Origin: Neisseria canis
Lineage (GTDB): Bacteria > Pseudomonadota > Gammaproteobacteria > Burkholderiales > Neisseriaceae
Direction: 5' to 3'
DNA: 64,000 bases
Assembly (NCBI RefSeq): GCF_900636765.1
Contig: NZ_LR134313.1
Span: 620,001 to 684,000 of the forward strand
The notes below the pieces were generated by a model. The model saw only the letters and a program-made list of their open reading frames with translations, ran no database searches and was not told where the DNA came from. Below, piece after piece: positions 3,610 to 34,514 of this stretch. Each line of letters begins with the position of its first letter. The first letter of the stretch is position 1. The translations under genes were made by a program, and so were the position numbers.

Positions 3610-3954
3610 ATGACCGACTTGCCGAATCAAGCCGAAGCACAGGCGCGCATCGACCATATTCAGAAACTCTACCGCGAATGGACAGAGCTGCTCCCCAAAC
3701 TCGAAGCCGCCCATCAAGACTGGTTGCGCGGCGAGGCCATCATGCGCGAGCTGGCGCAGTTTTACTTTGAAGGCGAATACAGCCGCTACCACCAAGCCCT
3801 CGAAGACGGGTTGGATGTGAATCTGCACACGCAAGGCGAATACAGCATCATGAGCGAAGACGCGCTGTGGAACGCCTTCACCGAACAGCAAAGCCTCGCT
3901 TGGCAGCGGCTGCGTTCGGCTGTGGCGGTGTTGGATAGGGATGGCGGGGATTGA
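3610..3954 (+). CDS. DUF4298 domain-containing protein
   Basis: 114 aa, soluble, acidic and helical, with no signal peptide. It starts MTDLPNQAEAQARI after an AAAGGA ribosome-binding site. The pattern of a short helical protein with EAAHQDWLRGEAIMRELAQFYF and a C-terminal SEDALWNAF block matches DUF4298, of unknown function. It lies 68 bp after the adaptor gene and may share its transcript. Its stop codon overlaps the first base of an AG-DUS. Confidence 0.65.
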   Translation: MTDLPNQAEAQARIDHIQKLYREWTELLPKLEAAHQDWLRGEAIMRELAQFYFEGEYSRYHQALEDGLDVNLHTQGEYSIMSEDALWNAFTEQQSLAWQRLRSAVAVLDRDGGD

Positions 3955-4033
3955 GGCCGTCTGAAAAAATGCCTGTCTGAAAAGGCCGTCTGAACACACC
4001 ATGCCTGTCTGAAAGCTGTTTCAGGCAGGTATT
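3954..4033. repeat. Cluster of four alternating DUS, ending in a hairpin
   Basis: AG-DUS at 3954, wadDUS at 3969, AG-DUS at 3983 and wadDUS at 4001 follow one another in the same orientation. An inverted variant (TTTCAGGCAGGTAT) at 4019-4033 pairs with the last one to form a terminator-like stem for the genes before it. Confidence 0.8.
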
Positions 4034-4054
4034 TTTACGCTGTGAACCATCACA

Positions 4055-4162
4055 TATAGTTAATCAACTTAACTTTTACTACGGCGTTGCTGCGCCTTGC
4101 CGTACTATCTGTACTGTCTGCAGCTTGCTGCCTTGTATTAAAAATTAATTTGATTAACTATA
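4055..4162. mobile_element. Correia-type miniature element (CREE) 2
   Basis: 108 bp, ends TATAGTTAATCAACTTAA and TTTGATTAACTATA, same core as the copy at 346-452 with a few substitutions. It lies between the DUS cluster and the promoter region of the TonB-dependent receptor. Confidence 0.85.
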
Positions 4163-4184
4163 GACAACATAAAAATATCTATAA

Positions 4185-4207
4185 ATATAAATGATAATAA
4201 TTTTTAA
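4185..4207. promoter_or_regulatory. Possible Fur box upstream of the receptor gene
   Basis: ATAAATGATAATAATTTTTAA, read by eye, partly matches the Fur consensus GATAATGATAATCATTATC. It lies in very A+T-rich DNA 64 bases before the receptor ATG. Iron-responsive repression would fit the gene. The match is imperfect. Confidence 0.4.
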
Positions 4208-4270
4208 ATGTATTAATATAATAAAATTTTTGAACCGATATTACTTTTATAGGTAACAGGATATTTTGAG

Positions 4271-6490: not shown

Positions 6491-6594
6491 TACCTTGCCG
6501 CCGCCTTTGCATCTGGTTTTTAAAGAAGGCATTCCCCTATTTGGGTTTGCCCGTCTTAGGCGGCAATATCATTATTGTTTATTTTATTTACCCT

Positions 6595-6624
6595 ATGCCT
6601 GTCTGAATTTTTTCAGACAGGCAT
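6595..6624. terminator. wadDUS inverted-repeat hairpin
   Basis: ATGCCTGTCTGAA and its complement are separated by only a few T residues. It lies 105 bases after the receptor stop and 16 bases before the next start, so it could attenuate read-through into the transporter gene. Confidence 0.65.
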
Positions 6625-6640
6625 CCTATTACTGCTCATT

Positions 6641-8407: not shown

Positions 8408-8524
8408 AAAGTGAAACCTCTTGGCGGGATGCCGCAGATGCGGCAAATACACCATAACGGCAATGCAGTTGAATTTTTTATAATACGGTATGACTGCACC
8501 GATGATGGGAAATGAAGTTTAACC

Positions 8525-9391
8525 ATGTGGAATACTTTAAAAAATATCGGCACCACACACCGTAAAAAGCTGTTGCTCACGTTCAGTATCGTGGCTTTGG
8601 AAAACCTGCTGTTTCTGATTTACCCCGTGTTCGGCGGTTTTGCCGTCAACGCGGTAATACAGGGCAAGGTATGGCAGGCGCTGACTTACGCGCTTTTGGT
8701 ATTGTTGATGTGGTTGGTGGGGGCGGCACGGCGCAGCGCAGATACGCGCGTGTTTGCCCGTATTTACAGCGAAATCGCCGTGCCTGTGATTGTGAAGCAG
8801 CGCATACAGGGGCAGACGCCGTCTGAAATTGCGGCGCGGGTGGCATTGTCGCGGGAATTTGTCGATTTTTTTGAAATGCATTTACCGACGGCGGTTACTT
8901 CGCTGGTGTCTGTGTTCGGCGCGGCCATTATGCTTTTGGTGCTGGAGTTTTGGGCCGGCGTGTTGAGCCTGATGATTTTGGCGGTATTTTTGATATTGCT
9001 GCCGGGTTTTTCGCGCGTGAGCGAAAAACTGTATTTCAAACTCAACAACCGCTTGGAGCGTGATGTGGATATGATTCAGTCTGCTCCCGAAATCATGCTG
9101 CACAGGCATTTCGGTTTGGTTGCCCGTTTACGCATTTTGATTTCCAACCGCGAAGCATTGGGCTATCTGTGCGTCGGCATAGCAATGGCCTTGTTGTTCG
9201 GCTTTACTTTCGTGTGGATTACCTTAAACGGTTACGGCAGCGCAGGACATATCTATTCGCTCACCACTTATTTATGGATGTTTGCCATGAGTTTGGACGA
9301 TGTGCCGAGGCTGGTAGAAAGCTATTCCAATCTGAAGGATATTGCCCGTCGCGTGGAAGTGGAAAGCATTCATTCCAAGCAGGCCGTCTGA
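8525..9391 (+). CDS. Stand-alone six-TM ABC transporter membrane domain (ABC_membrane_3-like)
   Basis: 288 aa with no ATPase domain. Hydrophobic segments lie near residues 17-45, 52-70, 118-165 and 212-260. The pattern matches the small family of proteins annotated as ABC transporter six-transmembrane domain proteins. Starts MWNTLKNIGTTHRKK, 117 bp after the SbmA-like gene. It may depend on another protein's ATPase. An in-frame GCCGTCTGAAATT encodes part of TPSEIAAR near residue 100. Function is unknown; linkage to the receptor and transporter suggests a role in the same uptake process. Confidence 0.7.
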   Translation: MWNTLKNIGTTHRKKLLLTFSIVALENLLFLIYPVFGGFAVNAVIQGKVWQALTYALLVLLMWLVGAARRSADTRVFARIYSEIAVPVIVKQRIQGQTPSEIAARVALSREFVDFFEMHLPTAVTSLVSVFGAAIMLLVLEFWAGVLSLMILAVFLILLPGFSRVSEKLYFKLNNRLERDVDMIQSAPEIMLHRHFGLVARLRILISNREALGYLCVGIAMALLFGFTFVWITLNGYGSAGHIYSLTTYLWMFAMSLDDVPRLVESYSNLKDIARRVEVESIHSKQAV

Positions 9392-9536
9392 AAAACATGC
9401 TTGTCTGAAAAAGCATTTTAAAAAACAGCACGTCCGTCATACTCGAGCTTGACCTGAGTATTTCCCGAAGTGGTTGGAATTCAAGATACTCGGGTCAAGC
9501 CCGAGTATGACGGTACGGTTACTACTGAAGTTGTTT
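9381..9536. repeat. Two-dialect DUS pair and bipartite palindromic repeat, copy B
   Basis: AG-DUS at 9381 overlaps the preceding gene's end and is followed by a one-mismatch wadDUS at 9397. Next come two palindromic blocks (9435-9460 and 9485-9513) of the ATACTCGGG/CCCGAGTAT family. The outer ends, AAAAAACAGCACG and its partner at 9520-9536, resemble those of the other copies. Confidence 0.75.
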
Positions 9537-9564
9537 GGTTACACATGGGAAAAAAGAGGCGCAT

Positions 9565-9900: not shown

Positions 9901-9913
9901 AAGGAAGTCCGCT

Positions 9914-10579: not shown

Positions 10580-10669
10580 TGCCGTGCCTGTTTGAAAACT
10601 TTTGTGCGTAGGGCGGGCATCTCGCTTGCTGTGGAGCAGCTAACATAAATTTGACGTGCATTGAGCAGA

Positions 10670-10774: not shown

Positions 10775-10832
10775 ACTGATGTTGTGTAATTGAATTGACT
10801 ATATGCTTTATTGGATGGAAGTAACGGAGAGC

Positions 10833-10888: not shown

Positions 10889-13800
10889 TTAGGCGGTAAT
10901 CAGTTCCCTTAAAAACGTATCAATCTGCTTGTTCAGAAAAATCAGGCGGTCTACTTTGAAATACGCCTTGGCTTTTTCTTTGTCCACGGTGGCTTTTAAG
11001 GCGTTCAGTTTGGCTAGGTCTATGCTATCGCGGTTGTATTTTCGGGCGAGCATCTCGCGCAGCAGGCTGCCGTTCAGCCCCAAATCGTCAATCACTTTCT
11101 GTATTTTCTGTTCGGCCTCGGTGTGTTTGCGGGCGGTGATGTAGTCGCTCAAGGTTAGGGCGGGGTCGAGGGTGATGTCGCCCGATTGTACGTCGTGCAA
11201 AAACTGTTCGGCGATGCGCTGGTCTTCTTTGGACAAGGTGGCAAATGCGTGGTGCAGCTCTTCAAACGCCGCCGTTTTTTCCGTATCGCCGATGGCTTTG
11301 AGCCATTTTTCAAAACGGGCGTTCATGTAGTTTTGATCGATTTTATCGGTTTCGATTTCGTTGATGTGCGACTGCAAATCAAAAGGTACGCTGTCATCGC
11401 CGCTGCCCGTGCCGCTGCTTTCGGCAAACAAATCCTTGTAACGCGCCAGCAGCTTGTCGTAGGTTTGTCGGTCGAAATCCAGCGTGGCGGTAATCACGCT
11501 GCCGTTTTCCTGCATCACGTCGTAGCTTTGCTTTTCCCACACAAATCCCAACAGGCGTGCTGATTGCAGGTGGTTGTTGAGTTGGTTGAAGTCCTTCACA
11601 AATTTGGCGCATGCGGTGGCATCGTCGGGATTTTGGGCAAAATCCGCCTGCCCTGCGTGTTTGAAAATCGCGGCAATATCGGCAAAGCAGTCGTTCATTT
11701 TGTTGATGACTTGATCGAGATTGTCCACAAACAGCCCCAGCGGGCGGTCGCCAGAATAAAGTTTGACCGCCTGCTCGATGTTTTTGTGCATGGTGTGCGG
11801 TTTGCGGTAGTAGCGGATTAAGCCGAACGGCTTGTCGGTGTTGTCGCACAGGCGGTTAGTGCGCGAAAAGGCTTGAATCAGGTTGGCGTACTCCAAGAGC
11901 TTGTCCAAATACAGCGTATTGACCCATTTGCTGTCGAAGCCGGTGAGCATTTGATCGACCACAATCAGCAAATCCAGTTGCTCGGCAGGCTGCACCCGTT
12001 TGTAGGCTTTGATGTGGGCGAGGCGGTCGGACAAATCGGCTTTGAATTTACCGTAATCGGCATAGCCGAAATGCGTACCGAATCGGGTGTTGTAATCGCT
12101 TAGAATTTCGGCAATCCACGCTTCTTTGTCGCTGCCTTGTCCGTCGTTGGCAATACTCGGATCAAACAGTGCGGTAAGCTTCAGCCCCGTATTTCTGGCT
12201 TTGATTAAGCGGTAATACTGCACCGCTTCGGGGATGGAACTCGTGGCAAAAATGGCGTGGTATTTGCCGCCTTGGCTTAGCCGCTGCCAGTTGCCCAGCA
12301 GGTCGTCAATCACGGCATTCACATGCTCCGCCACTTGATATTGCGCGTTCGGCACATGTTCTTCAATCTCCACCATATCCACGTCGTTCATAAAGCGGTT
12401 ATAGATTTTCTTTTTCTTTTCATCGGTAAATACTTCAAGTTCATCTTTCGCCTTGGCTTCCTGCAAGGCCACGGCGCGGCGCAAATCGCTGTCTTTGAAG
12501 GTGCTGATGTGAAAGGGGTGAAAGCCCAGCACATTGCCGTCACGAATGCCGTCGGCAATCGAATAGCGGTGCAGCTCTTTGCCGAAAATTGTGGCAGTCG
12601 TCGCGTCTTTTTTTGCGTTTTCGTCTTCAATCGGCGTACCGGTAAAGCCGAAGAAAATGGCGTGGGGAAAGGTGTACTTGATGGAAATCAGCATCTCGCC
12701 GAAAGTGGTGCGGTGCGCTTCGTCAATCACAAACACCAGCCGCTTTTCGGCAATTTGGGCAATATCCGCTTCGTTTATGTCATCTTCTGGTTTGATATTG
12801 CTCATTTTTTTGATGGACGTTACGATCAGGCCGTCGCGGTCGGCATCGCTTTTGAGCTTGGCGAGCAATACACCGGTATTTTCTGTTGCCTGCACATCGC
12901 CCTTATTGTCGGCAAAGTTTTGATACTCCTCCAGCGACTGCTTGCCCAGCTCGATGCGGTCGAGTAGAAACACCACCTTATCGGCATCTTTGCGGCGGCT
13001 GATGAGCTGCGCCGCCTTAAAGCTCGACATGGTTTTGCCCGAGCCTGTGGTGTGCCAGATATAGCCGCCGCGCTGATTGCCCGCTCCCCAATGGGTGCTT
13101 GCCACCGTATCGGCGATTTTGTTTACCGCGTAATACTGATAGCTGCGCAGCACTTTGAGCTGTTCGTCTTTGGCATCGGCAATGGTGTAATCGCCGATAA
13201 ACTGATGCGCCATCGGAATGGAAAGAAAATGCGTCGTCACCTTATCCCACTCTTCAATATATTCATTATTGAAATCCGCCCAGCGGAAATAAAACGCCGG
13301 ATTCAACGCCCCGCTGGTATTGGCAAAATAGCGGCACTCCTCGGGTGACATCGCCACAAAAATCTGCACCAAGCTGAAAATCCCCGAAAATGCCCCCGCC
13401 TTGTGGTAACGCTCGATCTGATTCGTGGCCTGGCTGACAGGCACGCCCGATCGTTTCAATTCGATATGGAACATCGGCATACCGTTGATTAACAGCATCA
13501 CATCGCCGCGCTGTTTGGGGTATAAATCCGAACGCGCCGCAAACTGCGGCTGGCGGGCGATTTGGTAGCGGCTTTTGCCTGCCGAAATCTCTTCGCGGTC
13601 GAAAATATCCAGCGACACTTCCTTGCCGAAATGGCGGCTTTCGGGGTGTTCGCGTTTGATGGCGACGGTTTTGCCGTTGATAAAACCATTGAGCGCATAA
13701 GGTGTTTTCAGCGTTTGCACCTGTTCCAGAATCTGATCCATTTCGCTGCGCAACAGCGGCACATCAAGCCTGTCGATATGCTTGTTGGTCTTATCCAAAT

Positions 13801-13921
13801 GTGCCTGCCAGTTGGTAATCAAATCTTCTTCGGTGGGATGGTTTAACGCCTCCGCCTCCCAACCCTTGGTGGAAAGCAGTTTGATTAAAGCGTTTTCAAA
13901 ATCGGATTCTTTGTTGAACAT
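10889..13921 (-). CDS. hsdR: Type I restriction enzyme, R subunit (motor and nuclease)
   Basis: 1010 aa. The N-terminal nuclease domain contains RGDVMLLINGMPMFHIELKRSG around residues 138-160, a PD-(D/E)xK site with the D...ExK residues. The SF2 helicase part has Walker A TTGSGKT near residue 292, the VFVIDEAHRT box near 397 and FFGFTGTPI following it. The C-terminal region is helical. It translocates DNA and cuts unmethylated DNA when bound to HsdM2HsdS. It is the last gene of the hsdM-hsdS-fic-hsdR order on the minus strand and is separated from fic by about 50 bp holding an AG-DUS. Appears intact. Confidence 0.95.
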   Translation of the reverse strand: MFNKESDFENALIKLLSTKGWEAEALNHPTEEDLITNWQAHLDKTNKHIDRLDVPLLRSEMDQILEQVQTLKTPYALNGFINGKTVAIKREHPESRHFGKEVSLDIFDREEISAGKSRYQIARQPQFAARSDLYPKQRGDVMLLINGMPMFHIELKRSGVPVSQATNQIERYHKAGAFSGIFSLVQIFVAMSPEECRYFANTSGALNPAFYFRWADFNNEYIEEWDKVTTHFLSIPMAHQFIGDYTIADAKDEQLKVLRSYQYYAVNKIADTVASTHWGAGNQRGGYIWHTTGSGKTMSSFKAAQLISRRKDADKVVFLLDRIELGKQSLEEYQNFADNKGDVQATENTGVLLAKLKSDADRDGLIVTSIKKMSNIKPEDDINEADIAQIAEKRLVFVIDEAHRTTFGEMLISIKYTFPHAIFFGFTGTPIEDENAKKDATTATIFGKELHRYSIADGIRDGNVLGFHPFHISTFKDSDLRRAVALQEAKAKDELEVFTDEKKKKIYNRFMNDVDMVEIEEHVPNAQYQVAEHVNAVIDDLLGNWQRLSQGGKYHAIFATSSIPEAVQYYRLIKARNTGLKLTALFDPSIANDGQGSDKEAWIAEILSDYNTRFGTHFGYADYGKFKADLSDRLAHIKAYKRVQPAEQLDLLIVVDQMLTGFDSKWVNTLYLDKLLEYANLIQAFSRTNRLCDNTDKPFGLIRYYRKPHTMHKNIEQAVKLYSGDRPLGLFVDNLDQVINKMNDCFADIAAIFKHAGQADFAQNPDDATACAKFVKDFNQLNNHLQSARLLGFVWEKQSYDVMQENGSVITATLDFDRQTYDKLLARYKDLFAESSGTGSGDDSVPFDLQSHINEIETDKIDQNYMNARFEKWLKAIGDTEKTAAFEELHHAFATLSKEDQRIAEQFLHDVQSGDITLDPALTLSDYITARKHTEAEQKIQKVIDDLGLNGSLLREMLARKYNRDSIDLAKLNALKATVDKEKAKAYFKVDRLIFLNKQIDTFLRELITA

Positions 13922-13970
13922 GGTGCGTTTCTCTTGTTTTTAGATTTTTTTCAGACGGCCTTATCGGGCA

Positions 13971-15095
13971 TTAAACCCGAACCAACTCCATCATCTGCTC
14001 AAATGAATACAATGCCGATTTACGTCCGCCGGCCTCTTCTTTTAGCGATAAAATGCCTTTATTTAACAATAACTTGGTAAATCGGTTTGCCGTGGCCGGC
14101 GGAATGCCTGCAAAGTCGGACAAACGGCTGTTGCGGAAAACAGGATAAGTAAACACAAAATCCAGCACGGCAAGCGAGTGCTTGGAAGAAAGTGTTTCGG
14201 CAAAAACAGATTTCATTTCCTCATAAAGCGAATGAATGTTTTGGGCAATTTCAAGATTGTGCACTGCCTGCCAATAAACCGCCTCCAAGAAAAATCTGCA
14301 CCATTCGTTCCAATCGCCCGTGTCGGAAACCCCGCGCATCAATTCGATATAGCGTTCTTTATGTTCCTCAAAATAGCCGCTGATATAAAAATGCGGCGCA
14401 CTGATGGCATCTGCCTGCCAAAGCATCAAGGTAATCAACATTCTGCCGATGCGTCCGTTGCCGTCTTGAAACGGGTGGAGCGCTTCAAATTCAAGATGGG
14501 AAACCGCCGTTTTCGCCAAAATCGGCGCAGGGTCGTGATGAATGTAATCAAATAACGCATCCAAGCCTTCATCTAATTTTTCAGGGCTGATCGGCACAAA
14601 GAGAATGGCTTTTTTCCCCTTGTCCGCCAAATAATTCTGCTCGTGCTTGAACGTTCCCGGCGATTTATTGGCACCGCGCCCGTAAGACAAAAGCTGCTGG
14701 TGCATGGTTTTCAATAAAAACTTGCCGAGCGTATAGCCGCCTTCCAAGGCATTTTGCGCATTTTTTAAAGCCCGTTGGTACAGCACGGTTTCCACAATAT
14801 CCGAACGCACTTCGGCAGAATGGCTGCCGTCGCCGAAATCCGCCTCATACTGCATAATCTCGTCCATCGTGCTGATGGTGCCTTCCATACGCGAAGAAAT
14901 CACTGCTTCCTGATTGCGCAGCGGAGCCAGCAAAATTTCACTGTTGTGCATATTTTTCAGCATCTGGTCGTAACGCGCCAAAGCATCGGTTGCCTTGAGC
15001 AGTCCTGCCATCAGCAGGGGATAATCCAGCGTTTGAGGTGGAAATCGGTTGTAGTGATACCCAACGGCATCATCAAAATTAAGCAGTTGCTTCAA
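13971..15095 (-). CDS. Fic domain AMP-transferase-type protein in the hsd locus
   Basis: 374 aa. The start is a TTG at 15095, with AAAGGGGAA upstream; no in-frame ATG is suitable. An N-terminal Fic_N-like region includes SSRMEGT near residue 67, matching the inhibitory (S/T)xxxE(G/N) helix of class II Fic proteins. The catalytic loop HPFQDGNGRIGRML lies near residue 208 and is complete. The C-terminal 80 residues (VLDFVFTYPVFRNSRLSDFAG) look like a winged helix. Fic enzymes AMPylate target hydroxyls. Fic genes inside type I R-M operons are known, but their role is not clear. Three palindromes lie directly upstream (15131-15240), suggesting self-regulation through the winged helix. Confidence 0.9.
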   Translation of the reverse strand: MKQLLNFDDAVGYHYNRFPPQTLDYPLLMAGLLKATDALARYDQMLKNMHNSEILLAPLRNQEAVISSRMEGTISTMDEIMQYEADFGDGSHSAEVRSDIVETVLYQRALKNAQNALEGGYTLGKFLLKTMHQQLLSYGRGANKSPGTFKHEQNYLADKGKKAILFVPISPEKLDEGLDALFDYIHHDPAPILAKTAVSHLEFEALHPFQDGNGRIGRMLITLMLWQADAISAPHFYISGYFEEHKERYIELMRGVSDTGDWNEWCRFFLEAVYWQAVHNLEIAQNIHSLYEEMKSVFAETLSSKHSLAVLDFVFTYPVFRNSRLSDFAGIPPATANRFTKLLLNKGILSLKEEAGGRKSALYSFEQMMELVRV

Positions 15096-15130
15096 TAGCT
15101 TCCCCTTTGTTAATCAAAAAATAAGAATTT

Positions 15131-15240
15131 TGAGCGACAAGTCGTATTGTCGCTCATCAATGATTGACAAGCAAGTTTGTCAATCAAAAAGAACGAAAAA
15201 TGATTGGCAAAATAGTTTGTCGCTCACAAATGAGCGACAA
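15131..15240. promoter_or_regulatory. Array of palindromic operator-like sites before fic
   Basis: Site 1 at 15131-15156 is TGAGCGACAA-N6-TTGTCGCTCA. Site 2 at 15161-15186 is TGATTGACAA-N6-TTGTCAATCA. Site 3 at 15201-15226 pairs TGATTGGCAA with TTGTCGCTCA. A further TGAGCGACAA at 15231-15240 makes a second palindrome with the end of site 3. All arms are 10 bp. Sites start at 30, 40 and 30 bp intervals. They overlap the only place a fic promoter can be. Confidence 0.75.
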
Positions 15241-15285
15241 ACCGGCAGGCATATCGGTTTTTCAGACGGCCTTTGCCGTCAAACA

Positions 15286-15350
15286 ACTATGACCTACCGT
15301 GCTTTACTATGCCTTACTACCCACTACTGCCAACCACTACCAAGCACTAG
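15286..15350. repeat. Decamer-phased ACTA array between hsdS and fic
   Basis: ACTAT, ACCGT, ACTAT, ACTAC, ACTGC, ACTAC and ACTAG begin at 15286, 15296, 15306, 15316, 15326, 15336 and 15346, exactly 10 bp apart. The bases between vary. No reading frame explains it. It is flanked by AG-DUS copies near 15260 and 15379 and a relic CAGACAGCC at 15362. Confidence 0.65.
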
Positions 15351-15390
15351 AAACCCGCTTTCAGACAGCCCTTTGTTTTTCAGACGGCCT

Positions 15391-16608
15391 TTACACCAGC
15401 ATGGCGGCGAGCAGGGCTTTTTTCAGACGGCCGAGTTTTTCGGTTTCCAAAGCGTACAGAGCGATGGTGTTATCCAGTTGGCGGAAGAAGTTGCCGATGG
15501 CGGTTTGTTCTTCGGGGCTTGGGAAAGAAATTTCAATTTTTTTCACAATTTCTCCCGACAAATTTCCTTGCCCGCCCTGCAAGTACAGATTAACGATATT
15601 CTCTTTGTTGGCTTTCAGCCATTGAGAGATAAATTCAGCATCATAATTTTCGCTGGGGATGATTGCCAAAATAGCCTGATTTATCGCTCCGTCCATTTGG
15701 CTTCTTCCAACTTCTCCGCTTGTTGCACCATAAAGGGCATACAAAATATCGCCTTTTTTCACTAATTTTGCAGATGAGTTTTCCAAGCCGATTTGGGTTA
15801 AAAACAGTTCGGTTTTTGAACTGTGAATTTCGCCTGAGCGAATAAAAGGAATATTGCCGCCATAAAATTTATTATTTCCAATACTGGGTGTTCCGCCTGA
15901 GTAAGAAAAAGCAATTTCCCCCAACGTTTTCCTTTCCCATTCCCCCGTAAAGCCTTTAAATCGGATTTTAGGGGTGGTTTCGCCTACGGCAGGGAACATT
16001 TTTGTCAGCATGGCTTTTTTAAGTTGGCGGCTTTTTTCCCACAAGGCACGGCTTTGGGTGATACGGTGGTCGAGCTCACGGAAAAAGTTGCCGAGTTGGG
16101 CTTGTTCGGGGAGTTGGGGAATAAAAAGTTCAGCTTTTAATAGCTTATTTTTTGATACCTCCAAAAACGTTGAACCAGACGCATTTTTCAGTGCATATTC
16201 CTTGATTTTAAATCCCATTGAGTAGAGAAAATAAATATCCAGTTCTTTGCCAACGACAAAAGATTGAAATCCTTGATTAGTTGATCCTGCTTTAGTAAGG
16301 ATTGCCATATCGCCAATACTTGCCCTTGACGTAAAAAGTACCGTTTTATTTTCAGGTAGCATTTTTGCCGAACTTTTCTGCAATCCTTGCGATGTAATTT
16401 TTTTTACGCTTCCGTTTGCATAAATATGCTCGCCAATTTCGGTTGGTGAGTACCAATCAATATCTCCGTTCCAGTATGCTGGATTTGTGGTATCAGGCGT
16501 TCCACCGCCAATAATTTCCACTATCTCACCGAGCGTTTTCTTTTCCCAAGCTCCACCAAAGCCTTTAAACCGCAGGCTTGGGGCGGTTTGTTTGTGCCGT
16601 GTCGTCAT
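15391..16608 (-). CDS. hsdS: Type I restriction-modification specificity subunit
   Basis: 405 aa with two similar halves. Each begins with the same type of block: LRFKGFGGAWEKKTLGEI near residue 12 and IRFKGFTGEWERKTLGEI near residue 214. Each target-recognition domain is followed by a helical spacer (FFRELDHRITQSRALWEKSRQLKKAM; FFRQLDNTIALYALETEKLGRLKKAL). The two domains recognise the two halves of a bipartite DNA target. The start lies 3 bp after the hsdM stop, so translation is coupled. No homopolymer or tandem repeat that would suggest phase variation is evident. The 3' end carries an in-frame AG-DUS. Confidence 0.95.
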   Translation of the reverse strand: MTTRHKQTAPSLRFKGFGGAWEKKTLGEIVEIIGGGTPDTTNPAYWNGDIDWYSPTEIGEHIYANGSVKKITSQGLQKSSAKMLPENKTVLFTSRASIGDMAILTKAGSTNQGFQSFVVGKELDIYFLYSMGFKIKEYALKNASGSTFLEVSKNKLLKAELFIPQLPEQAQLGNFFRELDHRITQSRALWEKSRQLKKAMLTKMFPAVGETTPKIRFKGFTGEWERKTLGEIAFSYSGGTPSIGNNKFYGGNIPFIRSGEIHSSKTELFLTQIGLENSSAKLVKKGDILYALYGATSGEVGRSQMDGAINQAILAIIPSENYDAEFISQWLKANKENIVNLYLQGGQGNLSGEIVKKIEISFPSPEEQTAIGNFFRQLDNTIALYALETEKLGRLKKALLAAMLV

Positions 16609-16611
16609 TGC

Positions 16612-19362: not shown

Positions 19363-19400
19363 GGATTGGCCTGTGTTGGGGATTTTGAATCGTGAAAATG

Positions 19401-19513
19401 TAGAGTCATTTAAAATAAGAACGATACGGCGTTGGCTGCGCCTTGCCGTACGTACTACTTGTACTGTCTGCGGCCTGCCGCCCTGTCTCGTTCTTATTTT
19501 AAATGACTCTATA
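19401..19513. mobile_element. Correia-type miniature element (CREE) 4 with long perfect ends
   Basis: A 113-bp element whose 24-base ends (TAGAGTCATTTAAAATAAGA... on the left) are perfect inverted repeats. The core (GATACGGCGTTGGCTGCG, GTACTGTCTGCGGCC) is Correia-like. The ends differ from copies 1-3 and 5, so this is a separate subfamily. It lies 38 bp upstream of hsdM and could affect its transcription. Confidence 0.8.
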
Positions 19514-19573
19514 GAGTGGTGTTTATTATAGCAATTTTTGTTAAGAAATGTATGGGGAATGGCGGGCGGTTGC

Positions 19574-19621
19574 AAAAGGCCGTCTGAAAATCTTTATTAA
19601 AGGTTTTTCAGACGGCTTTTT
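19574..19621. terminator. AG-DUS inverted-repeat hairpin
   Basis: AAAAGGCCGTCTGAAAA and TTTTTCAGACGGCTTTTT with a loop of about 12 bases and a T run on the plus strand. It lies upstream of hsdM, beyond the Correia element. Confidence 0.65.
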
Positions 19622-21121: not shown

Positions 21122-21172
21122 AGTTTTGCTGCATGATTGAATGATGCCGTCTGAAAAATGCCTGTTGGAAAC

Positions 21173-22145: not shown

Positions 22146-22175
22146 AGGCCGTCTGAAAAACGATGCCTGTCTGAA
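22146..22175 (+). repeat. Two-dialect DUS pair
   Basis: AGGCCGTCTGAA at 22146-22157 and ATGCCTGTCTGAA at 22163-22175, same orientation, 5 bases apart, in the 199-bp gap between convergent genes. Confidence 0.8.
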
Positions 22176-24304: not shown

Positions 24305-24354
24305 AGGCCGTCTGAAAAACCATGCCTGTATGAAAATACTTTTCAGACAGGCAT
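24305..24354. terminator. AG-DUS plus decayed wadDUS hairpin between convergent genes
   Basis: AG-DUS at 24305 followed by ATGCCTGTATGAA (one base changed from wadDUS) at 24322, pairing with an intact complement at 24341-24354. A bidirectional terminator is likely. Confidence 0.65.
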
Positions 24355-25534: not shown

Positions 25535-25566
25535 AGGCCGTCTGAAACCCACAATACCTGTCTGAA
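25535..25566 (+). repeat. Two-dialect DUS pair
   Basis: AGGCCGTCTGAA at 25535 and TACCTGTCTGAA (one-base wad variant) at 25555, directly upstream of the RbbA-like gene. Confidence 0.75.
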
Positions 25567-25579: not shown

Positions 25580-28500
25580 ATGATAAACAACCCCGCCGTC
25601 TCCCTCCGCTCCGTTTCCCACCGCTACGGCAAAACCGTAACGGCGCTGGACGATGTGTCGCTGACCATCCCGCGCGGGGTAACTGTGGGCTTAATCGGTC
25701 CCGACGGAGTGGGCAAATCGACGCTGTTGTCGCTGATTGCCGGCGTTAAAATCATTCAGAGCGGCACGGTGGAGGTGTTCGGGTACGACATGGCCGCCAA
25801 AGCGGCGCGGCAGGCGTTGTCGCACCGTATTGCCTTTATGCCGCAGGGTTTGGGGCGCAATCTGTATCCCACTTTGAGCGTGTATGAAAACGTCGACTTC
25901 CATGCGCGGCTGTTCGGCCTGAATGCCGCCGAACGCAAAGCGCGCATCAGCCGTCTGCTCGCAGCCACCGGTTTGGCACCGTTTCCCGACCGCGCGGCGG
26001 GCAAGCTCTCGGGCGGGATGAAGCAGAAGCTGAGTTTATGCTGCGCATTGGTGCATTCGCCCGATCTGCTGATTCTCGACGAGCCGACCACCGGTGTCGA
26101 CCCGCTGTCGCGCCGCCAGTTTTGGGCGTTGGTGGACGAATTGCAGGCCGAAAGTGCGGGCATGACGGTAATCGTGGCCACCGCCTACATCGAAGAGGCG
26201 GAACGTTTCGGCCATCTGCTGGCGATGGACGACGGCAAACTGCTGGTCAACAAGCCCACCCGCGAGGTGATGCGTGACAGCGGTGCGGCCACACTGGAAG
26301 CCGCCTATGTGCAGATGCTGCCGTCTGAAAAACAGCAAGGCTTGGGTGGGTTGGAGATGGTGCCGTTTGCGCCCGATCCCGCTTCTCCTCCGGCAATCGA
26401 AGCACACGGTTTAACCAAACGGTTCGGCAGTTTTACCGCGGTGGATCATGTGAGTTTTACGATTCAGAAAGGCGAAATCTTCGGCTTTCTCGGCTCTAAC
26501 GGCTGCGGCAAATCCACCACCATGAAAATGCTTACCGGCCTGCTGGAAGCCAGCGAAGGCAAGGCCGAATTGTTGGGGCGGCCGATTGAAGCGGGCAATA
26601 TCCAAACGCGGATGCGTGTGGGCTATATGTCGCAGGCGTTTTCGCTGTATGAAGAACTGAGCGTACGCGACAACTTGATGCTGCATGCCCGCCTCTACCA
26701 AATGGGCGCGGCCGGCGAACAGGCGGTGGCCGATGCGCTGGTTCAGTTCGACCTCAGCGATGCCGCCGCTGCCAAACCCGCCTCGCTGCCTTTGGGCATC
26801 CGCCAACGGCTGCAACTGGCGGCGGCCTGCCTGCACAAACCCGAAGTGCTGATTCTCGACGAACCGACCTCCGGCGTCGATCCCGCCGCCCGCGACATGT
26901 TTTGGCGGCATCTGCTCAAACTCTCGCGCGAAGACAAAATCACCATATTTGTGTCGACCCACTTCATGAACGAGGCCGAACGCTGCGACCGCATTTCCTT
27001 CATGCACAAAGGCCGCGTGCTGGCGGTGGGCACCCCCGCCGAACTGGTGGCGCAATACCGTGTGCAGAATTTGGAAGAAGCGTTTGTGCGCTATCTGTTG
27101 GATGACGAGATGCGCGAAAGCCTGTCTGAAAGGCCGTCTGAAACGGCGACTTCCGCGCAAGCAAACGCGCAAACAAATAATGCCGCCGTGCCGCCGCAAC
27201 AAACTGCCGATTCGGAGAGGCCGTCTGAAACCGAAAGCGTGGCCCGACTGGCGGCGAGGATTGTTCGGTCGGATCAGGATTTGGACGTGCAGGCAGGGAT
27301 AAGGCCGTCTGAAAATGTCCGTTCCGACAGCAGCCTTGCTTCCTCGCAAGCGGAAGAGAAGCAAACGGTTATTGCACCGGAAGCCTCAGTTTCTTCCACC
27401 CCAGACGAACCGTGTTTGGAAACCGGCAAGATTACAGAAAGGGAACAAGCCGCCGATGTTTCAGACAGGCCGTCTGAAACCGAAAGTGTGGCTCAAGTTG
27501 CAGCAAAGAGCGCGCAGGAAAATCAGGATTCGGATGCGCAAACAGGCAACAGGCCGTCTGAAAACACACCGCCGACCGACACCTTGAAATACTGGCTGGC
27601 AAGCGTGCGCACGTTTGCTTTACGTGAAACCAAAGAATTGCTGCGCGACAAGGTGCGGCTGTTTTTCGCCTTAGCGGGGCCGGTGATTTTGATGGTGGCT
27701 TTGTCGTGGAGTGTGTCGTTCGACGTGAAAGACCTCACGTTTACCGTGCTCGACCGCGACCAAACCACGGAAAGCCGCCGCCTTACCGAATATTTTTCCG
27801 GTTCGCGCTATTTTCAGCAACAGCCGCCGCTCTCGTCGCCAAGCGATATCGACACCGCCTTGCAGTCGGCGAAAACGCGTTTGGTGATTGAGATTCCCGA
27901 AGGTTTCGGGCGCGATATGCTGGCGGGCAGGCGGCCGGAAGCGGCGTTTTATGTCGACGGCGCGATGCCGTTCAACGCCAGCAACATCCAAGGCTATATC
28001 GGCGGCATTTTTGCGCTGTACGGGCAGGATTTGGCGCGCGAAACGGGGCTGACGCTGCCGCCTCCCGCGGCCAAAATCGAGCAGCGGTTTATGTATAATC
28101 AGGATTTTGAAAGCATTTTCGCCATCGCGCCGGGCGTGTTGATGCTGGTGCTGATGCTGATTCCGGCGATGATGTCTGTGGTCGGGGTGGTGCGCGAACG
28201 CGAAATCGGTTCGATTTCCAATTTCTACACCTCGCCCGCCACCGTGCCGCAGTTTCTGCTCGGCAAGCAGCTGCCGTATATTGCGGTGGGCATGGTGAAT
28301 TATGTGGTGCTCACGGCGATGATGGTGTTCGGCTTCGGCGTGCCGGTGAAAGGTTCGCTGCTGGTGCTGACGGCGGGCACGCTGATTCTGCTGTTTGTGT
28401 CCACGGCGCTGGGCTTGCTGGCTTCGACCATCGTGCGCTCGCAAGTGGCGGCCATCAGCCTCACCGCGATTGTGATTATGATCCCGACCTTCAACTATTC

Positions 28501-28711
28501 CGGCTTTCTGCATCCGCTCTCGTCGATGGAAGGCGGGGCGTACTGGATGGGCAAGCTGATGCCCGCGTCGTGGTATCTCAATATCAGTATCGGCAGCTTC
28601 ACCAAAGGCTTGGGCGGGCACGACCTGGGCCGCGAAATGCTGGTGCTGCTGGCGTTTTACGTGGTGTATTTCACCTCGGCCTGCTGGATTTTGAAGAAGC
28701 AGGAAAAATAA
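25580..28711 (+). CDS. RbbA/YhiH-like protein: two ABC ATPases fused to an ABC-2 permease
   Basis: 1043 aa. ATPase 1 has GPDGVGKST near residue 40, signature LSGGMKQKL and LLILDEPTTGVDP. ATPase 2 has GSNGCGKST near 305, signature replaced by LPLGIRQRLQLAA, and VLILDEPTSGVDP near 425. Residues about 690-1043 form an ABC-2 permease, with one TM, a large periplasmic loop and five more TMs. This order is that of E. coli RbbA (YhiH), whose operon partners are an HlyD protein and the permease YhhJ. Between ATPase 2 and the permease a linker of about 150 residues contains five in-frame DUS (RPSET/RPSEN) and a duplicated block. Drug or ion export is the likely role; ribosome binding is described for E. 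coli RbbA only. Confidence 0.9.
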   Translation: MINNPAVSLRSVSHRYGKTVTALDDVSLTIPRGVTVGLIGPDGVGKSTLLSLIAGVKIIQSGTVEVFGYDMAAKAARQALSHRIAFMPQGLGRNLYPTLSVYENVDFHARLFGLNAAERKARISRLLAATGLAPFPDRAAGKLSGGMKQKLSLCCALVHSPDLLILDEPTTGVDPLSRRQFWALVDELQAESAGMTVIVATAYIEEAERFGHLLAMDDGKLLVNKPTREVMRDSGAATLEAAYVQMLPSEKQQGLGGLEMVPFAPDPASPPAIEAHGLTKRFGSFTAVDHVSFTIQKGEIFGFLGSNGCGKSTTMKMLTGLLEASEGKAELLGRPIEAGNIQTRMRVGYMSQAFSLYEELSVRDNLMLHARLYQMGAAGEQAVADALVQFDLSDAAAAKPASLPLGIRQRLQLAAACLHKPEVLILDEPTSGVDPAARDMFWRHLLKLSREDKITIFVSTHFMNEAERCDRISFMHKGRVLAVGTPAELVAQYRVQNLEEAFVRYLLDDEMRESLSERPSETATSAQANAQTNNAAVPPQQTADSERPSETESVARLAARIVRSDQDLDVQAGIRPSENVRSDSSLASSQAEEKQTVIAPEASVSSTPDEPCLETGKITEREQAADVSDRPSETESVAQVAAKSAQENQDSDAQTGNRPSENTPPTDTLKYWLASVRTFALRETKELLRDKVRLFFALAGPVILMVALSWSVSFDVKDLTFTVLDRDQTTESRRLTEYFSGSRYFQQQPPLSSPSDIDTALQSAKTRLVIEIPEGFGRDMLAGRRPEAAFYVDGAMPFNASNIQGYIGGIFALYGQDLARETGLTLPPPAAKIEQRFMYNQDFESIFAIAPGVLMLVLMLIPAMMSVVGVVREREIGSISNFYTSPATVPQFLLGKQLPYIAVGMVNYVVLTAMMVFGFGVPVKGSLLVLTAGTLILLFVSTALGLLASTIVRSQVAAISLTAIVIMIPTFNYSGFLHPLSSMEGGAYWMGKLMPASWYLNISIGSFTKGLGGHDLGREMLVLLAFYVVYFTSACWILKKQEK
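27119..27566 (+). repeat. DUS-containing linker repeats inside the RbbA-like gene
   Basis: AGGCCGTCTGAA copies at 27131, 27219, 27302, 27467 and 27551 all fall in the same reading phase and encode RPSE. The first is joined to AGCCTGTCTGAA at 27119 and the fourth to an inverted TTCAGACAGG at 27460. The blocks ERPSETESVARLAAR and DRPSETESVAQVAAK, each followed by a similar stretch and RPSEN, show a tandem duplication of about 35 residues separated by unrelated sequence. Confidence 0.8.
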
Positions 28712-28746
28712 TGCCTGTCTGAACGTATCGGGCAAAAGGAGGCGAT

Positions 28747-29199: not shown

Positions 29200-29321
29200 G
29201 GGAATGCCTGTCTGAAAAGGCTATACAACCATTCTATAAGCCGGCCCGAATATTGAGATACTGAATCCATACGGGTTGGCTGAAAATATAAACGCGCTTC
29301 ATATTTTGGAAAAGATGCATT

Positions 29322-30188: not shown

Positions 30189-30244
30189 TATGCCTGTCTG
30201 AAAACAATCGAATCTGCTGTAAAAAATAAGTCAGGAGGAAAATA

Positions 30245-30985: not shown

Positions 30986-31001
30986 CCAAAAAAATTAAAC
31001 C

Positions 31002-32141
31002 ATGCCTCAAGATAAGCCCATGCGCAGCATTAAAAACATTTTCTACTTAGCACAAAAAGAACTCCGCAGCCTGTTTTCCGACTTGGTGCTGATGGTGCTG
31101 ATTGTGTTTATGTTTACGGTTACGATTTTTTCCGCCGCCCAAATCGACCCGGGCGTGAAAAACGCTGCCGTGGCGGTGGTGGACGGCGACCGTTCGGCGC
31201 TTTCCTACCGCCTACGTGATGCCGTGCGCGAGCCGTTTTTCCAGCCGCCGCAGGAAGTGGAAGCGGAGGTGGTAAATCAGGCCATGGACAAGGGCGAGTA
31301 TATTTTTGCATTGGAGATTCCGCCGAACTTCGAGCGCGATGTGCTGATGGGGCGCAGCCCCGAGTTGTTGTTGCAAGTAGATGCCACCGCCATGTCGCAG
31401 GCAGGTTTGGGCGCGGCTTATCTGACCCGCATTCTGGAGCGCGAAACGGCAGAGTTTGCGCGGCAGCAGCCGGCGGAAAAATGGCTGCCCGTGAAGCCGG
31501 TAATCCGTTCGCATTTCAACGCCAATGCCGAAGGCAGCTATTACGGGCCGCCGATGGAGTTGGGCAATATGGTGCTGGTGTTGGCGCTGATTTTGGTGGG
31601 CGCGGCAGTTATCCGCGAGCGCGAACACGGCACCATCGAGCATCTGCTGGTGATGCCGGTGAACGCCGCCGAAATCATGCTCGCCAAAGTGCTGGCCAAC
31701 AGCGCGATGATTTTGCTGGTGTCGATATTGGCAATGTGGATGGTGGTGAAGGGCATACTCGGCGTGCCGATTTACGGCTCCATCATGCTCTACGGCTTCG
31801 GCGTGGCCGTGTATCTGTTTTCGATTGCCGCGCTGGCGGTGATGCTTGCCACGATTGCGCCGAGCATGGCGCAGTTCGGCCTCTTGATGATTCCGCTGTA
31901 CATGGTGCTGCTGCTGTTTTCCGGTGTGGCCTCGCCGCGCAACAATATGCCCGCAGCGGCGCAATGGATCAGTGAATATTGGCCGAGCACGCAGTTTATT
32001 CAATTTGCCCAAAGCGTGCTGTTCCGCAATGCCGGCCTCAGCATCGTGTGGCCGCAACTGTTAGCAATGGCTTTGACCGGCTTGCTGTTTTTGGTATTTG
32101 CGTTGATGCGGTTTAGAAAAATGCTGGAGCAACAGGGCTGA
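31002..32141 (+). CDS. ABC-2 permease (YhhJ/YbhR-like)
   Basis: 379 aa; an alternative start is the ATG at 31020. One N-terminal TM (LVLMVLIVFMFTVTIFSAA) precedes a large periplasmic domain with GEYIFALEIPPNFERDVLMGRSPELLLQVDAT, then five TMs from residue about 190 (MVLVLALILVGAAVIREREHGTIEHLL). This is the half-size ABC-2 permease that pairs with RbbA/YhiH in enterobacteria. The RbbA-like gene is 2.3 kb upstream on the same strand with three unrelated genes between. Confidence 0.9.
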   Translation: MPQDKPMRSIKNIFYLAQKELRSLFSDLVLMVLIVFMFTVTIFSAAQIDPGVKNAAVAVVDGDRSALSYRLRDAVREPFFQPPQEVEAEVVNQAMDKGEYIFALEIPPNFERDVLMGRSPELLLQVDATAMSQAGLGAAYLTRILERETAEFARQQPAEKWLPVKPVIRSHFNANAEGSYYGPPMELGNMVLVLALILVGAAVIREREHGTIEHLLVMPVNAAEIMLAKVLANSAMILLVSILAMWMVVKGILGVPIYGSIMLYGFGVAVYLFSIAALAVMLATIAPSMAQFGLLMIPLYMVLLLFSGVASPRNNMPAAAQWISEYWPSTQFIQFAQSVLFRNAGLSIVWPQLLAMALTGLLFLVFALMRFRKMLEQQG

Positions 32142-32177
32142 GGTTTTCAGACGGCCGTCTTAGAGAAAGGAAACGTA

Positions 32178-32933
32178 ATGGATATCCGCCATTTGCCCGA
32201 TCCGCAAACACAGCTTCCCGCACGATGGCAGGCTTATGCTGCATGGCTGGCTGCACGGGGAAATCCGCCCAAATCCTACCGCGACCACCCGTTTGAATCG
32301 CCAGACGAACTGGCGGCTCTGAAAAAAGATTTCGAACGGTACGTCGGCATGTCGCTCGGTCAGTACATCCGCCTGAAACGCATCATGCACTTGCTGGCAC
32401 AACGCAACAACAAACACGGCAACGAGCTGATGGTCTCTGTATCTGCCACGCCGTTGGGGCAGATGCTGGCCGTATTCAGCACACAAGGCTTGTGCCTGCT
32501 GGAGTTTCCCGAGCGCAAAATGCTGGAGAGCGAACTTTTGGCGGTGCAAAAAGCATTTCAAGCGGATTTTGTGTGGCGCGACACGGCGCACAGCCAAACT
32601 TTACAGCAAGAGTTGAATCTGTATTTTGAAGGCCGTCTGAAAAACTTCTCCACGCCGCTTGATCCAGTCGGTACGCCGTTTCAGCGGCAAGTTTGGCGAG
32701 AACTGCAAAGCATTCCCTACGGCGAAACCCGCAGCTACAAACAACAGGCGGAACGCATCGGCAAACCGCAGGCCGTGCGTGCCGTAGCCGCGGCCAACGG
32801 GCAGAATAAGATTTCCATCCTGATACCGTGCCACCGCGTGATTGGCAACAACGGTGATTTAACCGGCTACGGCGGCGGCCTTGCGCGGAAAAAGGCGTTA
32901 TTGGCATTGGAAGGCGTAATCTCTGTTGTTTGA
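32178..32933 (+). CDS. Methylated-DNA-[protein]-cysteine S-methyltransferase with an Ada-type N-terminal remnant
   Basis: 251 aa. The C-terminal 90 residues are the MGMT catalytic domain: TPFQRQVWRELQSIPYGETRSY, then PCHRVIGNNGDLTGYGGG with the acceptor Cys near residue 216. The middle is the N-terminal MGMT subdomain. Residues 1-80 hold FERYVGMSLGQYIRLKRIMHLL, resembling one half of an AraC HTH as found in Ada, but the first helices are missing. It repairs O6-alkylguanine by self-alkylation. An in-frame AG-DUS near 32630 encodes GRLKN. An AlkD-like gene lies nearby (33778). Confidence 0.9.
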   Translation: MDIRHLPDPQTQLPARWQAYAAWLAARGNPPKSYRDHPFESPDELAALKKDFERYVGMSLGQYIRLKRIMHLLAQRNNKHGNELMVSVSATPLGQMLAVFSTQGLCLLEFPERKMLESELLAVQKAFQADFVWRDTAHSQTLQQELNLYFEGRLKNFSTPLDPVGTPFQRQVWRELQSIPYGETRSYKQQAERIGKPQAVRAVAAANGQNKISILIPCHRVIGNNGDLTGYGGGLARKKALLALEGVISVV

Positions 32934-32986
32934 AAAAAATGACGGGAACGCCTGCAACATTTTAATTGAAAGGAACAGAAATAAAG

Positions 32987-33538
32987 ATGAGTTCAGCTTC
33001 AAATATATTCTGTAATAAAACTGTATGGTGGTTACTATTTGCAGCAACAATGACAGTATATCTGATTATGCTTACCGTTACCCTGCCTCAATTACAGGTA
33101 TTTTCAGACGGCCTTAGAGTACCGGATATGATGGTTTCGGGCTACGATACTGCATATTTACAGCAATTTTTCAGCAAATTAGGTAGTTCAGGCAGGCAAT
33201 TTTATCTTTGGCGACAGCTCCCGCTTGATATGCTTTACCCTGCTTTGTTTGCCGCCACTTATTCGGTTCTGCTGGCGTATTTATCCTTAAAAACAGGGAG
33301 GAAAGCAAAGATATGGAGAAAAGCCCTGCCTTTATTACCGTTGATTGCGGGTTTATTTGATTATCTTGAAAACATATTATTAATCGTACTGTTACGCCAG
33401 TATCCACAAGTATCTGTCATACAGGCCGCAACTGCATCAGTGTTTACAGTATGTAAATCGGCATTCGGTGCATTGAGTTTGCTGGCTGTATCCGTTTTAC
33501 TGGTTATTTGGATATGGAAGCGCGGCACAAAATACTGA
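32987..33538 (+). CDS. Four-TM membrane protein of unknown function
   Basis: 183 aa from the ATG at 32987; AAAGGA stands 11 bases before it. Hydrophobic segments are near residues 13-31, 81-100, 113-130 and 150-175. The loop after TM1 contains an in-frame DUS (complement) encoding FSDGL. No family is recognised. It lies between the two alkylation-repair genes; no functional link is evident. Confidence 0.65.
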   Translation: MSSASNIFCNKTVWWLLFAATMTVYLIMLTVTLPQLQVFSDGLRVPDMMVSGYDTAYLQQFFSKLGSSGRQFYLWRQLPLDMLYPALFAATYSVLLAYLSLKTGRKAKIWRKALPLLPLIAGLFDYLENILLIVLLRQYPQVSVIQAATASVFTVCKSAFGALSLLAVSVLLVIWIWKRGTKY

Positions 33539-33578
33539 AATAATAAAATCCCCTGTTACTGCAACACAGGAGCAAAGC

Positions 33579-33729
33579 ATGAAACTGTTTAAAACCAACA
33601 ACTTGGTTTCCATTATCAATGGTGGTGTATTATGAAAATGCGCTGGTGCGATATCAAACACGGCCCGGAGGGCTGATGAGATGCCAGATGGAAGGCAACG
33701 GCATTTCTTTTGTGCAGCTTAAAGAATAA
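33579..33729 (+). pseudogene. Possible frameshifted short gene
   Basis: ACAGGAG stands 7 bases before an ATG at 33579 that opens MKLFKTNNLVSIINGGVL and stops at 33635. In the overlapping +1 frame an ATG at 33619 reads VVYYENALVRYQTRPGGLMR and on to a stop at 33729. Both look coding-like in composition, so a single gene broken by a frameshift is possible. No homologue recognised. Confidence 0.3.
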
Positions 33730-33777
33730 CTTGCAGGCTCGAATGGCATTGTTGGCCGTCTGAAAAAGGTGCATACA

Positions 33778-34467
33778 ATGAATTACGAAGAACTGCTCGC
33801 TATCCTTACCCGCGAAGCCGACCCCGAACGCGCCGTGCCGATGAAAGCCTATATGAAGCACCGTTTCGACTATCTCGGCATCAGCAAGCCGCGTTTGGCT
33901 CAAATCTGCAAGCCGTTGTTTAAAAATGCGGCGGCAGCAGAAGTTGACTGGCGGTTTGTCGAACAATGTTGGGCTAATCCGCACCGCGAGCTGCAATACT
34001 GTGCGCTTGAGTATCTGAAAACCATGCAGAAAAAGCTCACGCCGCTAGACATTCCGCACCTGAAAAAGCTGATTACCGAAAAATCGTGGTGGGATACGGC
34101 GGACGTGCTCGACCGCATTGTCGGCGGCATCGCTTTGGTTTACCCCGAAACCAATGCCGTGCTGCTGGATTGGAGCAACAGCGGCAATATCTGGCTGCGG
34201 CGCGTCGCCATCGACCACCAGCTTTTGCGCAAAGACAAAACCGACACCGCGCTGCTGGAGCAAATTATCTGCAACAATTTGGAGCAAAAAGAGTTTTTCA
34301 TCAACAAAGCCATCGGCTGGGCGTTGCGCGATTACAGTAAAACCAACCCCGAATGGGTGCGGGCATTTATCGAACGGTATCGCAGCCGTATGGCGAAACT
34401 CAGTATCCGCGAGGCGGAGAAATATGTGCAAGCCGCATTACCGAAACAATCTGCACAAACGTTTTAG
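33778..34467 (+). CDS. DNA alkylation repair protein (AlkD-like HEAT repeats)
   Basis: 229 aa from the ATG at 33778, with AAAAGG 8 bases upstream (partly supplied by the end of an AG-DUS). All-helical protein with YMKHRFDYLGISKPRLAQICK and KKLITEKSWWDTADVLDRIVGG, where the WWDTxD motif holds the AlkD catalytic-type Asp and Trp. The C-terminal KAIGWALRDYSKTNPEWV is also conserved. AlkD glycosylases remove cationic 3-methyl- and 7-methylpurines. With the Ogt/Ada-like gene 0.8 kb upstream it makes a small alkylation-defence group. Confidence 0.92.
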   Translation: MNYEELLAILTREADPERAVPMKAYMKHRFDYLGISKPRLAQICKPLFKNAAAAEVDWRFVEQCWANPHRELQYCALEYLKTMQKKLTPLDIPHLKKLITEKSWWDTADVLDRIVGGIALVYPETNAVLLDWSNSGNIWLRRVAIDHQLLRKDKTDTALLEQIICNNLEQKEFFINKAIGWALRDYSKTNPEWVRAFIERYRSRMAKLSIREAEKYVQAALPKQSAQTF

Positions 34468-34487
34468 CGAAACTCACAAAGTTTGCT

Positions 34488-34514
34488 TTCAGACGGCCTC
34501 CATGCCTGTCTGAA
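34488..34514. repeat. Two-dialect DUS pair, opposite orientations
   Basis: Reverse AG-DUS at 34488-34499 and forward wadDUS at 34502-34514, 2 bases apart, upstream of the outer-membrane channel gene. Confidence 0.8.

Follow-up and report, generated by a model that had tools for sequence, protein, structure and literature searches.

Why do DNA uptake sequences (DUS) of two dialects lie side by side, again and again, in one part of the chromosome of Neisseria canis? The stretch in question, here called the window, comprises 64,000 bases (positions 620001-684000 of the single 2.57 Mb contig of genome G000), and the two motifs are AG-DUS and wadDUS. AG-DUS and TG-wadDUS are known dialects, and dialects are described as barriers by Frye et al. 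(2013, PMC3630211). An earlier note, made from the letters of the window, had listed such pairs, held them to be far more numerous than independent scattering would give, and offered two explanations: pairing might make the DNA acceptable to hosts of either dialect, or one copy could have arisen from the other. Our answer, which we take to be about as probable as its negation, is that the pairs may be two-dialect uptake units of a gene cassette locus traded repeatedly between AG- and wad-dialect Neisseria, with a role in crossover as well.

Both motifs are exact 12-mers abundant throughout the genome, as DUS dialects are: G000 has 2095 exact wadDUS, its dominant dialect, and 327 exact AG-DUS, with zero counts for the reversed-motif controls. 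All pair positions listed earlier hold the described motifs to within 1 base. Exact wad copies (TGCCTGTCTGAA) occur among them only at 3969, 4001, 22163 and 34502; the wad 14-mer has one mismatch at 9397, 24322, 25554 and 27118, and the copy at 27459, with two mismatches, is on the minus strand and overlaps its AG-DUS. The pairs 27118/27131 and 27459/27467 are inside the reading frame of the transporter gene rbbA (Table 1). Two pairs had been missed, 21144/21158 and 15390/15359; the latter is the sole minus-strand unit in the window and lies at the end of a minus-strand gene. We define the unit as an AG-DUS, a gap of -1 to 10 bases and a wadDUS, in this order on one strand; in hosts of both kinds, most units lie close to the 3' end of an open frame.

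Whether the pairing exceeds chance depends on the null. A 1.264 Mb sample of G000 (61 pieces) contains 178 AG-DUS and 1006 wadDUS, of which 82 and 835 fall between genes when genes are called, as in all the nulls, as plain longest open reading frames of at least 90 codons. A wadDUS lies within 10 bp of 13 of the 178 AG-DUS, where uniform placement predicts 3.9 and reaches at most 12 in 2000 shuffles; this null ignores the preference of DUS for certain places, and it is retained for comparison only. Two further nulls place the AG-DUS in intergenic DNA, or at their own offsets from random gene ends. Exact AG-to-wad tandems are not in excess over either (4 observed; 4.5 intergenic, 4.4 gene-end), and the counts are 1 for wad-to-AG tandems (4.6 and 3.4) and 9 for opposite-strand pairs (9.1 and 6.3). 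With wad copies of up to two mismatches admitted, AG-to-wad tandems number 10 against 4.9 and 5.0 (P 0.024, 0.029), wad-to-AG 2 against 5.4 and 4.1, and opposite-strand pairs 16 against 10.8 and 7.5 (P 0.067, 0.005); the shuffle P-values assume independent units, which these are not, as they can spread with cassettes.

Seven of those ten AG-to-wad tandems are in the window, involving 7 of its 28 AG-DUS versus 3 of 150 elsewhere (Fisher P 1e-4). When the null is confined to the locus, G000 has 6 AG-to-wad tandems against 0.6-0.8 expected, with none of 2000 shuffles reaching 6, and five homologous loci in other Neisseria have 5 to 7 each against 0.3-0.8. Pooled, the six loci give 33, against a gene-end mean of 4.0 and a maximum of 13 in 2000 shuffles; opposite-strand pairs are not above the null there (1 vs 2.0-3.9). 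The excess of pairs is a property of the locus, not of the genome, since the gene-end null absorbs most of the genome-wide excess while the locus-confined null does not. The claim of far more pairs than expected is therefore borne out within the locus and fails genome-wide for exact copies, whose pairing there does not differ from random intergenic placement.

The locus is an efflux operon encoding a TetR-like regulator, an HlyD-like adaptor, an RbbA-type transporter, an ABC-2 permease and a NodT-type factor (NCBIfam, Pfam). In G000 the operon is split between the HlyD and RbbA genes by about 22 kb of gene cassettes, which carry a TonB receptor with ABC transporter genes, a GST-like gene, type I restriction genes with a Fic protein, an OYE-like gene, regulators and a CPBP protease. 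Among the 46 Neisseria genomes searched, five others have the locus with rbbA at least 89% identical. Its wad-dialect holders are G000, G033 and G048; the AG-dialect holders are G010, G035 and G053, each with 27 to 37 wadDUS against more than 2600 AG-DUS, and 9 of the 27 wadDUS of G010 are at 78-98 kb, within the locus. The HlyD-RbbA interval spans 8-22 kb in the six loci, with differing content; in nine relatives outside the six in which both genes were located, it measures 0.1-0.4 kb (G037, G051, G017) or 0.9-2.9 kb (six genomes).

Across the dialect line within these six genomes, rbbA is 89-96% identical, and two core genes 73-78%. The core genes of G000 are 73.5-77.2% identical to those of the three AG hosts and 92.0-97.1% to those of its two wad sisters, while the corresponding values for rbbA are 91.6-92.6% and 89.9-91.6%. 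The dialects separate with support of 100/100 in both core-gene trees. The rbbA tree places all six in one clade (100/100), with G000 next to G010 (93/94) and G053, G048, G035 and G033 mixed in one clade (99/98). Because the dialects interleave in the rbbA tree yet split in the core trees, the locus must have passed between dialect groups more than once.

Compared in pairs, the six loci show 83 structural junctions; these comparisons are not independent. A shared end of at least 12 bases is present at 19 of these, and none of that length at the other 64. The shared stretch holds a DUS by pattern in 14 of the 19 cases, a one-mismatch wad copy in 3 and another repeat in 2; the tandem unit makes up 11 of the 14, all at two neighbouring sites. 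A DUS lies near the junction ends in 67 of 83 (a raw count, with no null). At the unit 9381..9409 four different left flanks (G000/G048, G010/G053, G033, G035) join one common right flank, and in G035 the TonB and ABC cassette is missing and the two outer units are fused into one. In some cases of cassette insertion or loss the joint thus falls within the unit itself. Repeats of approximately 193 bases, each consisting of a gene 3'-end remnant and a unit, are seen three times in the G035 locus and twice in that of G048. The body of this repeat is matched in the G000 sample in the window alone, with only DUS-like stretches elsewhere; a mobile repeat carrying the unit was considered and set aside, as the repeat resembles remains of gene 3' ends together with intergenic DNA.

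Both strands of the six loci yielded 48 registers, of which 42 were scored, all on the plus strand by construction; the other six are three overlapping-register artefacts and three minus-strand registers. Forty were used for stop-codon and hairpin counts, two very decayed units (G000 19884, G033 17915) being omitted. The stop codon of a frame of at least 70 codons falls between -90 and +14 bases from the AG copy in 29 of 40 units, often overlapping it (again a raw count, with no null). An intact first copy, meaning an exact AG- or AT-DUS, is present in 39 of 42 units and an exact wad copy in 24 of 42, alike in both kinds of host. The site before rbbA has a unit in all six loci, in some of them decayed. 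In two of six HlyD-RbbA intervals from other relatives, those of G042 and G011 (genomes with 0 exact wadDUS), a forward AG-DUS precedes rbbA, which gives a weak hint that the AG copy may be older than the wad copy.

Similar tandems occur elsewhere in the family. Exact AG-to-wad tandems are found at 59 places in 16 of 83 family genomes, and their order is biased, with 58 AG-to-wad places versus 13 wad-to-AG in the 46 genus genomes; in G018 and G019 wad-to-AG is likewise in excess (P 0.0099, 5e-5). Homotypic tandems were compared in the 15 of 46 genus genomes with an AG-to-wad tandem, and the result is therefore conditional on the presence of such a tandem. In 14 of these genomes the minority dialect stands beside the other dialect oftener than the majority beside itself (P 0.047 to 8e-11; odds ratios from 3 to 197, with one infinite). 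Many AG-AG tandems, partly in arrays, are present in G012, G028, G046 and G049 (40, 21, 50 and 198), and wad-wad tandems reach at most 16 per genome. One AG-DUS array, in G046 (C1:1412886-1413220), has about 20 head-to-tail copies with a 17-base period.

Some of these tandems are in DNA shared across the dialect line. AG host G018 and wad host G036 have blocks 98.7%, about 98% and 94% identical, with the unit kept in both copies, and one further site is common to wad hosts G033, G048 and G000 and AG hosts G035, G049, G053, G050 and G051 (74 to 94%, interpolated from alignments). Two tandem loci are seen only in AG hosts G018 and G019, and several have no partner among the loci compared. In a 94% block (L090/L114) the dialect is translated at one and the same site, an AG-AG inverted pair of G018 corresponding to a wad-wad inverted pair of G036. 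An AG copy followed by an eik, king or sim motif occurs at 30 places in 11 of the 83 genomes, and regions covering 25 of these were compared. G003, placed in the Eikenella genus only by the genus code that it shares with the Eikenella genome G004, has five AG-eik/sim tandems in four loci (53 eik and 21 AG motifs, counted in these loci only). Neisseria G020 has four such tandems, three with eik and one with sim, and each of them has a counterpart at a G003 site; the loci concerned are mostly 92-97% identical. The remaining G003 site is in a stretch that both genomes share but where G020 has no exact tandem. Neisseria G009 is just 75-82% identical to both at one of these loci. Two AG hosts, G012 and G044, have one such site in common (87-89%), and no tandem-bearing counterpart was found for the remaining places among the 25 compared. 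As the loci were picked for carrying tandems, these cases indicate that tandems can occur in shared DNA and do not give their frequency there.

The following mechanism may be envisaged. Unit-bearing DNA would enter through the DUS receptor (ComP) of either host, and since uptake would be possible through either ComP, each cassette would keep a tag readable on both sides. The 28-52 bases common to the units would act as a crossover stretch where cassettes are added or removed, and the HlyD-RbbA cassettes would be exchanged by transformation and homologous recombination. As for order, the AG-DUS that precedes rbbA in G042 and G011 points weakly to an AG copy that came first, the wad copy perhaps being gained after the locus entered a wad host. 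Units would accumulate in DNA that goes back and forth, a contrast based on one well-studied locus. The presence of both-dialect tags at gene ends suggests DNA marked for entry into either kind of cell. Uptake by either dialect, as the earlier note had it, gains from the units at homologous gene ends in three wad and three AG species, from the repeated crossing of the locus and from the second combination (AG plus eik/sim); transfer itself does not require the unit. Origin of one copy from the other, though conceivable, is not borne out: spacers range from -1 to 10, most genomes have few homotypic tandems, and no intermediate form was observed. A wider and more tentative proposal, which we think rather more likely to be wrong than right, is that bilingual tandems at gene ends form a general class in the Neisseriaceae, which selection or uptake drive would maintain and which would act both as a passport for accessory genes across dialect and genus barriers and as crossover joints.

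Several observations weigh against the bilingual uptake unit. Genome-wide there is no enrichment of exact tandems over the intergenic and gene-end nulls in the 1.264 Mb, and wad-to-AG tandems too are above the null in the six loci (7 vs 1.6-1.9). In the 42 scored units the intactness of the AG and wad copies does not track the host dialect, so there is no sign of each host keeping its own copy. G049 has no heterotypic excess (2/31 vs 198/2549, P 0.71). In AG host G010, 400 kb sampled systematically outside the locus hold no unit, and 10 of the 80 high-scoring segment pairs of this sample of at least 400 bases reach at least 90% identity to G000 (27.1 of 105.6 kb, one stretch counted twice). 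None of the nine such blocks has a unit: four have AG-DUS only, in both copies, four have no DUS, and in the ninth (L199/L022, 95.7%) G010 has two AG-DUS and G000 two wadDUS. Some of the DUS-free blocks may be slowly evolving genes, not transfers. Similar cross-dialect blocks without units imply that the unit is not needed for transfer.

The main rival is a hitch-hiking joint: the tandem would have arisen once or a few times and spread via short-homology recombination at DUS, bilingualism bringing no advantage. We consider this unlikely, albeit nearest in standing to the bilingual tag. It would explain why 17 of the 19 junctions with a shared end of at least 12 bases have it in a DUS or one-mismatch wad copy, 11 of them in a unit, at one pair of neighbouring sites, and why gene-end remnants with units occur 2-3 times in G048 and G035. 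It does not readily explain tandems at other, unrelated loci and with a second pair of dialects, or the variation of spacers and flanks; moreover, since 64 of the 83 junctions have no shared 12-base end, unit joints account for part of the rearrangement only. Simple crowding, in which both dialects favour gene ends and pair there by chance, is improbable: it agrees with the genome-wide match of exact tandems to the gene-end null, but confined to the locus that null gives 0.5-0.8 per locus where 5-7 are observed, and homotypic tandems, equally crowded, are far rarer in 14 of 15 genomes (not in G049).

Two further explanations have very little to recommend them. The wad copy could be one arm of a terminator, with the AG-DUS merely in front, and 7 of 40 units do have an inverted wad copy within 45 bases close behind, three more having an inverted AG-DUS with 3 mismatches. 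Ordinary wadDUS, however, have a 3' inverted partner within the same distance in 606 of 1005 cases in the genome sample, and a 5' one in 126 more; hairpins are therefore scarcer at units, most of which are not terminators. Equally hard to credit is a site-specific recombinase with the units as its attachment sites, on the model proposed for ICENmu. Some insertions and deletions do terminate at units, but no integrase, transposase or relaxase family was matched among 20 (Pfam) or 27 (NCBIfam) open reading frames, a subset of those in the cassettes. The bilingual tag is the best fit, albeit unproven.

The features of the window are collected in Table 1; we presume the permease to be YhhJ-like. 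Right behind the double unit, about 100 bases (window about 4057-4158) look like a small inserted repeat, which is absent at the corresponding place in G010, G053 and G048. In the region 10889-19575 a Fic protein gene lies between type I restriction and specificity genes, and this region has no alignment to the loci of the five relatives. The rbbA linker contains five in-frame AG-DUS (27131, 27218, 27302, 27467, 27551; span 27131-27562), four of them 84-87 bases from a neighbour, and the rbbA of G053 has an internal duplication at this AG-DUS-bearing linker. Elsewhere in G000 AG-DUS are clustered, with a dense cluster at C1 about 856-930 kb; its sampled part (L032) has repeated opposite-strand AG/wad pairs.

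Table 1. Genes and two-dialect units of the window (window positions)
Feature	Position	Strand	Remarks
HlyD-type adaptor gene, first flank of cassette region	2522..3541	+	NCBIfam PRK03598 HlyD 1e-33, under curated cut-off
Double unit AG-wad-AG-wad	3954..4013	+	Single unit in four relatives with both flanks (that of G035 is the recombinant unit)
Unit	9381..9409	+	Wad copy with one mismatch; AG copy gives stop codon of frame 8525-9391
Unit	15359..15390	-	Wad copy with two mismatches; adjoins 3' end of minus-strand specificity gene 15391-16608
AT-DUS (ATGCCGTCTGAA) and decayed wad copy	21144..21170	+	Two mismatches in wad copy; present in G010 too
Unit	22146..22175	+	AG and wad both exact
Unit at CPBP protease gene end	24305..24353	+	Wad copy with one mismatch, then inverted wadDUS
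Unit immediately 5' of rbbA	25535..25566	+	Wad copy with one mismatch
RbbA-type transporter gene (rbbA), second flank of cassette region	25580..28711	+	NCBIfam NF033858 above cut-off
ABC-2 type permease of operon	31002..32141	+	NCBIfam
Divergent pair before NodT gene	34488..34514	AG-DUS (-), wadDUS (+)	Opposite orientation
NodT-type outer membrane efflux gene	34535..35992	+	NCBIfam TIGR01845 above cut-off

Minimal mobile elements of Neisseria consist of variable genes between conserved flanking genes, without mobility genes. The HlyD-RbbA interval has a like make-up, with differing genes between constant flanks and no mobility gene among the open reading frames scanned; unlike those elements, its exchange spans the dialect line, and some of the joints are in two-dialect units.

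Other known systems resemble the units in part. The motifs are the published AG-DUS and TG-wadDUS (PMC3630211), and wadDUS dominates in G000 as in N. wadsworthii, whereas here a single site holds both dialects one after the other, and does so in AG and wad hosts alike. Two dialects in one short unit are also seen in the simDUS/kingDUS of Simonsiella muelleri, 1294 overlapping dyads in one genome (PMC3630211); our units are not overlapping dyads with dyad symmetry but direct tandems with gaps of -1 to 10, few per genome and associated with DNA that hosts of different dialects have in common. Foreign-dialect islands and ICENmu, whose insertion or att motif is centred on a DUS, are alike in that foreign DUS flag transferred DNA and in the DUS-centred insertion motif (PMC7371117), and unlike in that no integrase was found among the scanned open reading frames and the units carry both dialects. 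DUS inverted pairs in terminators (PMC2397512, PMC3630211) likewise put a second DUS within a few bases of the first, close to the end of a gene; the units differ in direct orientation and in dialect, and an inverted pair able to form a hairpin accompanies only the 7 of 40 already mentioned. Tandem two-dialect DUS units are the subject of no title or abstract found in our literature search, which left subscription literature mostly outside.

DUS dialects are regarded as keeping species genetically apart. A natural locus that has crossed the line more than once, its gene ends carrying both dialects, makes this barrier to gene flow testable, and with it the questions of how dialects change and whether a short tag widens the traffic in accessory genes. 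From sequence alone, tandem two-dialect units could flag DNA that dialect groups have exchanged and, if the general class is real, accessory genes of the Neisseriaceae would carry a passport across dialect and genus barriers.

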